Source: Rhizobiales bacterium GAS188 (GTDB lineage: Bacteria; Pseudomonadota; Alphaproteobacteria; Rhizobiales; Beijerinckiaceae). Taken from it: a stretch of 64,000 nt of DNA. A program made the position numbers and the translations under genes. Below are positions 23,112 through 63,509 of this stretch, piece after piece. The notes beneath the pieces are model-generated. The model saw only the letters and a list, made by a program, of their open reading frames with translations. It did not search any database and was not told the origin of the DNA. Numbering within the stretch: position 1 is the first letter of the stretch; each line of letters starts with the position of its first letter. Location of the stretch: contig FNSS01000001.1 of the NCBI GenBank assembly GCA_900104855.1, forward strand, positions 8,069,001 through 8,133,000, in the 5' to 3' direction.

Positions 23112-23262
23112 CCTTCTCCCGCCCTTTCGCGGGAGAAGGTGCAAATCTTGAACAGAAAGACTCTGCGCAGTGAGGGCGGATGAGGGGCACCGGTGAAGCG
23201 CTCAACCGTCCCTCATCCGCCTCGGCTTCGCCTCGGCACCTTCTCCCGCGAGCGGGAGAAGG
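23112..23262. repeat. REP-like element, copy 1
   Basis: Two hairpins flank a central ~100-bp body. The first arm (23112-23139) pairs CCTTCTCCCGC with GCGGGAGAAGG, and the second arm (23239-23262) has the same stem. The body holds CTCATCCGCCTCGGCTTCG-type sequence. Copies of the same family occur near 60.37 kb (split by an insertion sequence) and at 63.38 kb. It fills most of the 347-base gap after the methyltransferase gene. Confidence 0.85.
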
Positions 23263-60369: not shown

Positions 60370-60480
60370 CCTTCTCCCGCCTCTTTGCGGGAGAAGGTGC
60401 CGAGACGAAGTCGAGGCGGATGAGGGACGGTCGCGCGCTTCACCACCGCCCCTCACCCGCCCTCACTACGTTCGGGCACC
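60370..60480. repeat. REP-like element, copy 2 (left part; split by IS110 element)
   Basis: The first hairpin arm (60370-60397, CCTTCTCCCGC pairs with GCGGGAGAAGG) and the body up to GTTCGGGCACC at 60480 match copy 3 at 63.4 kb. In copy 3 the second arm follows GGGCACC directly; here it resumes only at 62199, after 1.7 kb of inserted DNA. Confidence 0.85.
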
Positions 60481-60482
60481 CT

Positions 60483-60697
60483 GTACCCTTGGCGTGTCTG
60501 AGGGCCAGTCTGCAGTGTAGACTGGTCGGACCGGGTCGACCTGCCGGGAGCAACCGAATGGCACCTGCGCCCGAGCACCTGGAGAGGACATGTGCCTCGG
60601 CAGGGAGACCGCGACTCAGGTCCGGTGGAAGGTTGCGCCGTGAGCGCCGGTACAGGGATCGACACAAGTCGCGGTGACCCGAACCTAGTGGAGAAGG
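60483..60697 (+). ncRNA. Candidate IS110 bridge RNA
   Basis: The non-coding DNA before the transposase has a 5' hairpin (CCAGTCT 60505-60511 with AGACTGG 60519-60525) and a long stem CCTGCCG (60540-60546) with CGGCAGG (60598-60604). Inside that loop, GGCACC (60560-60565) matches the left target flank and GGAGAGG (60581-60587) is the reverse complement of CCTCTCC at the right target junction. A second loop has GAAGGT (60628-60633), identical to the right IS end, and GGTACAG (60649-60655), the reverse complement of CTGTACC at the left IS end. The order target loop then donor loop is that of IS621 bridge RNA. RNA ends are approximate. Confidence 0.6.
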
Positions 60698-60700
60698 GTC

Positions 60701-61966
60701 ATGACCGATGACATCGAATGGTATGTCGGCTTCGACTGGGCCAGCGAGACGCATTGCGCTTGTCTCATGGACCGGGCCGGCCGGGTGGTCGGCAAACGCG
60801 AGGTGGCGCACGCGGGCGCCGATCTGGCGGAGCTGTGCGACTGGCTGATCCGCAAGACGGGCGCCGAGCCCGGACGGATCGGGGTGGCGATCGAAACGCC
60901 GCATGGACCGGTGGTCGAGACGTTTCTGGAGCGCGGCTTTGCGGTGTTCGCCATCAATCCCAAGCAACTCGACCGCTTCCGTGACCGCTTCACGGTGGCG
61001 GGCGCCAAGGACGACAGCCGTGACGCGCAGGTGCTCGGGGACTCCCTGCGCACCGACAGCCGCGCCTTTCGCCGTCTCGTCATCGATGATCCTGTGCGCA
61101 TCGAGCTGCGGGAGTGGTCGCGGATCGAGGATGAGCTGAAGCGGGAGCGAACCCGCCTCGCCAACCGGGTCCGCGACCAGCTGTGGCGCTACTATCCGCA
61201 AATGCTGCAGCTGAGCGAGGATCTCGCCGAGGACTGGCTGCTGGCCCTGTGGCGGCGGGTGCCGACCCCGGCCAAGGCCGCCAAGGCCTCCGAGGCCACG
61301 ATCCAGCGCATCCTCAAGGCGCACCGCATCCGCCGCATCGAGGCGCCGGAGGTGGTGCGCATCTTGCGCCAGACGCCGCTGAAGGTCGCGGCCGGTGCCA
61401 GCGAAGCGGCGAGCGCCCATATCCGCAGCCTCGCCGAGCGCATCGGGCTCATCAACCAGCAACTGAAGACGGCCGAGCGCAAGCTCGAGCAGCTCCTCAC
61501 TCGGCTCGAACAGGCGGCGCAGGACCAAGCGGGGCAGGACCAAGCGGGGCAGATGTCCGAGCAGCGCGACGTGACCATCCTGCGCTCCATGCCGGGGATC
61601 GGCAGGACCAATCTCGCCACGCTGCTCGCCGAGGGCTCGGAGCCCCTGGGCCGCAGAGACTACCACGTCCTGCGGACCCTGTCCGGGGTCGCGCCGGTGA
61701 CACGCCGCAGCGGCAAGGCCTGGATGGTGCTGCGCCGCCTGGCCTGCAACCGAAGGCTGAGGAATGCCCTCTACCATTGGGCCCGGGTCGCCACCCAGCA
61801 CGACCCGGTCAGCCGCCAGCGCTATGCTGCGCTGCGCGGGCGCGGCCACAGCCACGGCCGGGCCCTGCGAAGCGTCGGTGACCGCCTGCTCTATGTCGCC
61901 TGCACCTTGCTGCGACGCCAGGTTCTCTTCGATCCCGACCACAACAGCCTGGAGGCCGCGGCATGA
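60701..61966 (+). CDS. IS110 family transposase (recombinase)
   Basis: 421 aa. The N-terminal RuvC-like DEDD domain has Asp12 (VGFDWAS), Glu65 (VAIETPHG), Asp105 and Asp108 (KDDSRDA), the same spacing of the last two as in IS621 (102 and 105). A coiled-coil region at about 230-290 contains a QDQAGQDQAGQ duplication. The C-terminal Transposase_20 domain has MPGIGRTNLATLL and SGVAPVTRRSGKAW, with candidate catalytic Ser337. IS110 enzymes cut and join with a bridge RNA guide. The gene is complete, so the element may be active. Confidence 0.95.
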   Translation: MTDDIEWYVGFDWASETHCACLMDRAGRVVGKREVAHAGADLAELCDWLIRKTGAEPGRIGVAIETPHGPVVETFLERGFAVFAINPKQLDRFRDRFTVAGAKDDSRDAQVLGDSLRTDSRAFRRLVIDDPVRIELREWSRIEDELKRERTRLANRVRDQLWRYYPQMLQLSEDLAEDWLLALWRRVPTPAKAAKASEATIQRILKAHRIRRIEAPEVVRILRQTPLKVAAGASEAASAHIRSLAERIGLINQQLKTAERKLEQLLTRLEQAAQDQAGQDQAGQMSEQRDVTILRSMPGIGRTNLATLLAEGSEPLGRRDYHVLRTLSGVAPVTRRSGKAWMVLRRLACNRRLRNALYHWARVATQHDPVSRQRYAALRGRGHSHGRALRSVGDRLLYVACTLLRRQVLFDPDHNSLEAAA

Positions 61967-62198
61967 CCATCCCTGGGTTCGACCGCAGCGACCATCCCTT
62001 CGTCCCGACCTGCCCACGGGCAGAGCGCCGCGCGCCGCGCACGTCACCCCGAAGGGGGCGAAGCGCAGCGCAGCACCGCGCCCTTGCGCGGTTGACGCAG
62101 CCAGCGCGGCGCTACGCTCGTGCCCAGACGGGACACTACACTCGCTACCGTGCGGGGTTACCGCCCCGCAAATTAGGGCTTGCAAAAGGGTAGAAGGT

Positions 62199-62224
62199 CC
62201 TCTCCCGCGAAGGCGCGGGAGAGG
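62199..62224. repeat. REP-like element, copy 2 (right part)
   Basis: CCTCTCCCGCG (62199-62209) pairs perfectly with CGCGGGAGAGG (62214-62224) around AAGG. It is the second arm of the interrupted REP element, resuming right after the insertion sequence. Confidence 0.8.
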
Positions 62225-63377: not shown

Positions 63378-63509
63378 CCTTCTCCCGCTCTTCCGCGGGA
63401 GAAGGTGCCGAGGCGAAGCCGAGGCGGATGAGGGCGGTGGAGCGCTTCACCGGCGTCCCTCATCCGCCCTCACTGCGTTCGGGCACCTTCTCCCGCTTGC
63501 GGGAGAAGG
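63378..63509. repeat. REP-like element, copy 3 (intact)
   Basis: First arm 63378-63405 and second arm 63486-63509, both with CCTTCTCCCGC / GCGGGAGAAGG stems, and a body containing GCCGAGGCGGATGAGGG. The second junction GGGCACCTTCTCCCGC is the uninterrupted version of the IS110 target. It lies just after the LLM monooxygenase stop. Confidence 0.9.

Follow-up and report, generated by a model that had tools for sequence, protein, structure and literature searches.

The left end of a complete IS110-group element (window positions 60480–62198, 1719 bp; the window is the whole 64,000-nucleotide stretch of the Rhizobiales bacterium GAS188 genome that was analysed) almost certainly encodes a bridge RNA with a mechanism after that of IS621, as judged from the sequences of the element and its relatives. 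RNAs of this kind have been known since 2024, and the variation found here is a CC crossover core, with CT sites left unused. The positions of the ends, guides and RNA structures are listed in Table 1.

Table 1. Coordinates in the window of the element's ends, its target, the recombinase gene and the bridge-RNA features.
Feature	Position	Strand	Remarks
Left target (LT) GGCAC, t3–t7, in REP-like repeat	60475..60479	+	GGCAC in 5/6 copies; GACAC in L003, where guide G could wobble
Core dinucleotide CC, left copy	60480..60481	+	Relatives: N|CCTGTA left (CCTGTTCC in three), CC|N right, N variable
Right donor (RD) TGTACC, first bases of left end	60482..60487	+	
-10-like box TACCCT, circle-junction promoter (predicted)	60484..60489	+	TTGCAA-17-TACCCT
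5' stem-loop of RNA	60503..60527	+	Single-sequence fold only
Conserved bridge-RNA scaffold, target-binding then donor-binding loop	60532..60681	+	29 pairs; held-out model 130.1 bits, E 5.4e-22
Target-binding loop	60540..60604	+	Stem 60540–60551/60594–60604, inner hairpin 60567–60578; helices 1 and 2
Left target guide (LTG) GGCACCU	60560..60566	+	t3–t8 Watson-Crick, t9 U-G wobble
Right target guide (RTG) GGAGAGG	60581..60587	+	Pairs core CC + TCTCC
Target-loop handshake guide AC (putative)	60588..60589	+	Would pair donor d7 T, d6 G; A in at least 90% of 25 leaders
Donor-binding loop	60609..60674	+	Stem 60609–60616/60667–60674, inner hairpin 60635–60647; helices 3 to 5
Left donor guide (LDG) GGTGGAAGGT	60624..60633	+	Pairs right end GGTAGAAGGT
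Right donor guide (RDG) GGTACAGG	60649..60656	+	Pairs core CC + TGTACC, contiguous
Donor-loop handshake guide G (putative)	60657..60657	+	Would pair target t7 C
IS110 recombinase P0001, 421 aa	60701..61966	+	DEDD domain, Transposase_20 domain, GVAPVTRRSG motif with Ser337
-35-like box TTGCAA, circle-junction promoter (predicted)	62180..62185	+	
Left donor (LD) GGTAGAAGGT, last bases of right end	62189..62198	+	
Core CC, right copy	62199..62200	+	
Right target (RT) TCTCCC	62201..62206	+	Same in 6/6 copies

The recombinase showed matches to the Pfam domains PF01548 (DEDD_Tnp_IS110, 111.1 bits) and PF02371 (Transposase_20, 56.8 bits), passed the NCBI IS110 model NF033542 (154 bits, cut-off 140) and contains the G--P----SG motif of the C-terminal domain at residues 329–338. 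Among its three matches to solved sequences (up to E 1), the IS621 transposase was the best (E 1.3e-5), followed by the weaker match to the ISCro4 transposase (PDB 9t56; E 8e-4, residues 266–418), an element compared by protein only. In line with the IS110 group, the RNA lies in the left end, upstream of the recombinase gene, and the subterminal inverted repeats are short (TACCCTT/AAGGGTA, 7 bp, from inspection of the element ends by eye); the non-coding ends are similar in length (left approximately 219 nt, right approximately 232 nt), whereas a long left and a short right end is the trait of the group. The genome carries six full copies, identical save for one base in two of them and with identical guides, all inserted in one motif of the REP-like repeat. 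A remnant of 140 bp (L007, G000 contig C2 1500–1640; 85% identical) has kept the left end, LTG and RTG and lost the donor loop, and its left flank is ATCAC|CC as compared to GGCAC|CC; in one relative (L164, genome G016) about 1.8 kb of other DNA interrupts the recombinase gene. Relatives of P0001 at E 1e-60 were present in 2 of 385 genomes of the class and 4 of 397 of the order (own genome counted in each), and 19 of 100 near relatives matched at E 0.001, mostly weakly. According to database records the relatives are spread over several phyla, many being metagenome bins; phage records gave no match.

To define the structure of the RNA, leaders of relatives in named genomes and plasmids were collected, and 25 of 26, including that of the window, were aligned with MAFFT (L021 was left out because of a long insert). 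A structure of 29 pairs, drawn by eye on the same alignment that was used for counting, was paired in 94.3% of 723 cells, with double-sided changes in 22 pairs; none of 500 shuffles scored as high on any of five measures, and pairing dropped to 30–43% when the partners were slid by 1 to 3 columns. The window element has a C-A mismatch at one pair of the target-loop inner hairpin. A covariance model built from the 24 other leaders, a check on IS110 5' ends that the first-pass annotation had proposed, recovered the scaffold in the window at 130.1 bits, the sole other window match up to E 10 reaching 6.9 bits. With the 25-sequence model, a search of the whole genome at E 0.001 (150 of 6277 first-look candidates scored) returned the six copies and one remnant. 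Among 299 genomes of the phylum, own genome counted, 2 had a match to the RNA model. At gathering thresholds the window had no Rfam match, and 60440–60720 had none up to E 1. The single-sequence fold was modestly better than shuffles (z -1.78) and lacked the conserved donor-loop stem, so that folding of this kind is weak and partly misleading evidence. The leaders of the relatives (149–187 nt) differ in length by non-multiples of three, which counts against a conserved coding frame.

Four guide-like words had been singled out in the leader by the first-pass annotation, and all four are in place (GGCACC 60560–60565, GGAGAGG 60581–60587, GAAGGT 60628–60633, GGTACAG 60649–60655), as are the flanking and end sequences it described. 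Its match lengths of 6–7 nt hold for GGAGAGG (7 nt) but were too short for the donor guides, given that LDG spans 10 nt (9 identities and one G-T wobble versus GGTAGAAGGT) and RDG 8 nt (GGTACAGG versus CCTGTACC). It had remarked that the left guides do not extend across the core. LTG meets the core with one C and one U-G wobble and LDG reaches only d8, by a U-G wobble; RTG and RDG pair with both C. The doubt it drew from this is largely explained by the CC core. To the left of t3 the target match is weak (t1 is unmatched, and t2 pairs by no more than a U-G wobble, in 4 of the 6 copies). The window scores 5 of 7 for LTG against LT (4.5 to 5.5 over the six copies) and 5 of 6 for RTG against RT. 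When the 213-nt leader was shuffled 20,000 times with its dinucleotides preserved, the individual words turned up in 10.2, 9.6, 9.4 and 1.4% of the shuffles, three or more at once in 25 shuffles and all four in none, and the product of the word frequencies divided by 24 for their order is approximately 5e-7. Since the words were picked after looking at the sequence, this shuffle overstates the case, and the real evidence lies in the family-level comparisons described below.

The junctions of the window element (left target ...GGCAC|CC; right end GGTAGAAGGT|CC|TCTCCC, 62189–62206; left end CC|TGTACCC) fit by themselves a core of either CC or CT, CCT being common to both. A core of CT as in IS621 (target GGCACC-CT-CTCCC, donor GAAGGTC-CT-GTACC), merely resembling CC, was our first reading and was dropped in view of the right junctions of the relatives; we now consider it very unlikely. 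These junctions read GTCC followed by A, C, G or T (GCCC in L036, whose donor is GC|CC rather than GT|CC), and the left junctions any base followed by CCTGTA or, in three, CCTGTTCC. Also at odds with CT, both core bases face a G in RTG, one alignment column being G in all 25 leaders and the other in at least 90%; because the guide parser seeks GGA after RTG, its output is no proof of GG or A, and the alignment was used instead. Taken together, right junctions of CC plus any base and a guide G opposite both bases identify the core, at the level of sequence comparison, as CC, a crossover dinucleotide unlike the CT of IS621. Use of sites in the genome points the same way: among 237 intact GGCACC(C/T)TCTCCCGC sites, 34 have a CC core and 203 a CT core at the same register, and all six insertions are at CC-core sites and none at CT-core sites (Fisher p 1.4e-5, or 8.7e-5 without the GACAC copy, on the premises that each insertion was an independent event and that the sites available then were like those of today). 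Opposite the guide G, the T of a CT core could form no more than a wobble pair, so RNA, protein or both may underlie the preference. No mention of a CC core was found in the text passages of open-licence papers that were searched; the cores of six other elements are drawn in figures of Durrant et al. (2024, PMC11208160).

Exact GGCACCYTCTCCCGC sites number 119 + 118 in the genome. Four REP-like target sites of one orientation, spaced by exactly 114 bp (G000:C1:41388–41744, L088–L091), perhaps constitute a tandem REP array. Two further REP-like pairs are present in the window (23129–23249, one site with a mismatch, and 63395–63496), both with the CT-core version of the site and with opposite orientations.

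Guide matching was then compared across the relatives by scoring guides against own and foreign flanks, with LTG free to shift by 0 to 2 bases whether the target was its own or a foreign one. The following were dropped before counting: copies of the window element (L002–L006), further contigs from the genome of L041 that share its leader (L042–L046), a second copy in the L083 strain (L085), L150 (taken as a duplicate of L021, with the same identity and model score), elements whose left end was not found (L038, L039, L086, L152), the remnant L007, and L032, L047, L050 and L051, which had no match to the RNA model up to E 1. L029, L040, L041, L049, L083 and L151, which have no right junction, entered the LT test only, and L175 stood outside the counts. 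Own pairs of LTG and LT totalled 178.5 in 33 elements compared to 126.6 after shuffling (sd 5.0, max 149), and own pairs of RTG and RT 133 in 27 elements compared to 77.5 (sd 5.6, max 97.5), with none of 20,000 shuffles reaching either total. The result persisted without the C-rich left guides (LT 113.5 versus 70.8, 20 elements) and without the G-rich right guides (RT 86 versus 42.7, 18 elements; 0/20,000 each). Relatedness is ignored in these shuffles and in those of the donor and handshake comparisons below; with one element per related group, the totals were 110.6 versus 80.2 for LT (21 groups) and 88.8 versus 50.6 for RT (18 groups), reached in 0/2,000 each. For its own sites the window guides ranked 1 of 33 (LT) and 3 of 27 (RT). 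Poor ranks were found for the own LT of L030 (20), L031 (27), L048 (21) and L147 (21) among 33 and for the own RT of L022 and L084 (12 and 14 of 27), and L035 scored only 3 of 6 for RT.

On the donor side, LDG against LD totalled 210 versus 173.1 after shuffling (sd 5.1, max 194; 27 elements), with a full 8 of 8 in 22 of the 27 and 7.5 in the window; as right ends were located with LDG-like words this test is partly circular, LT and RT lying outside those words. Where the left end differs, RDG differs with it (ATACAGG against TGTAT in L025, L030 and L031); L033, L048 and L151 have one mismatch each to RD. The left end of L153–L155 was taken as CCTGTTCC because RDG predicted it, and is hence no test of RDG.

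The leader could instead be a cis-regulatory RNA of the recombinase gene, its guide-like words being due to chance or relics of old target capture, and we regard this as extremely improbable. The leader does lie directly upstream of the gene, and covariation by itself is silent on what an RNA does. Against it, the guides change with the flanks across relatives at fixed structural places, and the base after RDG tracks t7 (see below). Moreover, five close elements, gammaproteobacterial according to database records, score 6, 6, 7, 4 and 7 for their own LT, the mean after swapping being 4.3; own RT scores for four of the five are 6, 4.5, 3 and 6 compared to 2.5. Insertion sequences of the IS3, IS4, IS5 and IS256 families are not known to use a guide RNA. 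The least probable reading, of nearly negligible weight, is that the recombinase reads the REP-like repeat as DNA, with common descent of ends and targets behind the similarity of the guides: REP is targeted by these four families besides IS110, five in all, as described by Tobes and Pareja (PMC1525189), but relatives with recombinases 40–71% identical are inserted in different targets, matched by the loops of their own RNAs, and the result is kept when each related group is represented by one element.

The elements L033, L034, L035, L048 and L049 have a nearly identical RNA scaffold and different target guides that mostly fit their own sites, a possible case of natural reprogramming to judge from these sequences. 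The claim of a bridge RNA with its guides in IS621 order is supported by covariation, the held-out model, guide matching to targets and donors across relatives and the presence of six copies in one motif. When copies in different targets were compared, as the first-pass annotation had suggested, guides followed their own flanks, and the observation that it said would speak against the claim, the same guides at other sites, was not made among the six same-guide copies, which sit in the same motif.

In IS621, as described by Hiraizumi et al. (2024, PMC11208158), the nucleotide that follows each right guide pairs with the other DNA once strands have been exchanged. The base after RDG was Watson-Crick complementary to t7 in 30 of 33 elements (mean after shuffling 22.0; 0/20,000), namely G with C in 25, A with T in 4 and T with A in 1, the exceptions being L020 (G-T wobble), L083 and L153. 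The target-loop counterpart is near-invariant (A in at least 90% of leaders, donor d7 T in 26 of 27), so no covariation signal is possible there. With a donor-loop base that follows t7, an independent set of elements supports the handshake pairing proposed for IS621.

According to the same report (PMC11208158), IS621 reads the core T through the main chain of G63, and the guide base facing the core C through that of A61; both residues fall in EATGTYMEPV of the IS621 chain (numbering deduced from the chain). In all 32 elements in which it was read, the window included (32 of the 33 guide-test elements, all but L164; the window as L001 and L163 as L053), the corresponding loop, which follows the catalytic Glu, is shorter by three residues. 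All 32 have E-(T/V/I)-x-x-(G/A), with PV or a similar pair three residues earlier (e.g. ETPHGPV), and the distant IS110 proteins L059 and L062 have EATGNY and EATGHY. We infer from this comparison that the short loop may cause the CC core. The L156 group, from another clade, has the same loop length (ERPSGLVV), and its junctions share CTCAT, leaving the position of the core ambiguous. This group consists of seven copies (L156–L162, genome G023) of a distant IS110 element of about 35% identity, all abutting CTCAT; the left flank GCTCAT is ATGAGC on the other strand, and the element may insert at start codons. The difference in core could stem from the protein or from the right guides, whose GG would pair with T only as a wobble. 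On balance, the clade probably moved its crossover core from CT to CC, with the shortened loop replacing the reader of the core T and the more numerous CT-core sites of the host being spared.

While RNA structure, guide matching, the junction promoter motif and the CC core at six insertions rest on sequence comparison, the biochemical steps are modelled on IS621. The element would excise as a circle in which the right and left ends join, creating a promoter (TTGCAA-17 bp-TACCCT) from which the RNA would be transcribed. Joined ends would give TTG and TA boxes spaced 16–18 apart in 20 of 27 elements and would lack this arrangement in the other 7; the arrangement is that of IS621 (PMC11208160, PMC11208158), predicted here from the ends. 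The recombinase would bind the bridge RNA, whose target loop would pair with GGCAC-CC and CC-TCTCC of the REP-like repeat and whose donor loop would pair with GGTAGAAGGT-C and CC-TGTACC of the circle junction. Strand exchange would take place at the CC core, aided by the pairing of each loop's handshake bases with the other DNA.

The element resembles IS621, as described in PMC11208160 and PMC11208158, in its left-end RNA, two internal loops, guide order LTG-RTG-LDG-RDG and handshake positions after the right guides, and both insert into REP sequences. It differs in its core, CC here compared to CT in IS621 and orthologues, where the second T is called almost invariant. Furthermore, RDG is contiguous over 8 nt, whereas in IS621 nine RNA bases pair discontiguously with seven donor bases, LDG has 10 nt compared to 8, and the 421-aa recombinase has the loop ETPHGPV, three residues shorter than EATGTYMEPV of IS621. 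The IS1111 group with its seekRNA (Siddiquee et al. 2024, PMC11187229) has in common a DEDD recombinase and RNA-guided target choice. As stated there, its RNA is usually downstream of the gene, its subterminal inverted repeats are usually 11–13 bp and its guide order is reversed; here, the RNA is upstream and by eye only a 7-bp repeat was seen. ISPpu9, ISPpu10, ISPa11 and ISRm19 are REP-targeting members of the IS110 family like the window element, a likeness by description rather than by sequence, with all copies in REP (7/7, 7/7, 6/6 and 4/4) in the account of Tobes and Pareja (2006, PMC1525189).

Bridge recombinases are under development as programmable tools for DNA insertion, excision and inversion, and the CT-core preference of IS621 limits the choice of sites. 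A CC-core clade offers naturally occurring parts for another core and allows core reading to be tested directly. If the shift from CT to CC is true, the clade would be a source of recombinases that use a different core, and the pattern of six insertions against 237 intact sites would represent a natural specificity experiment.
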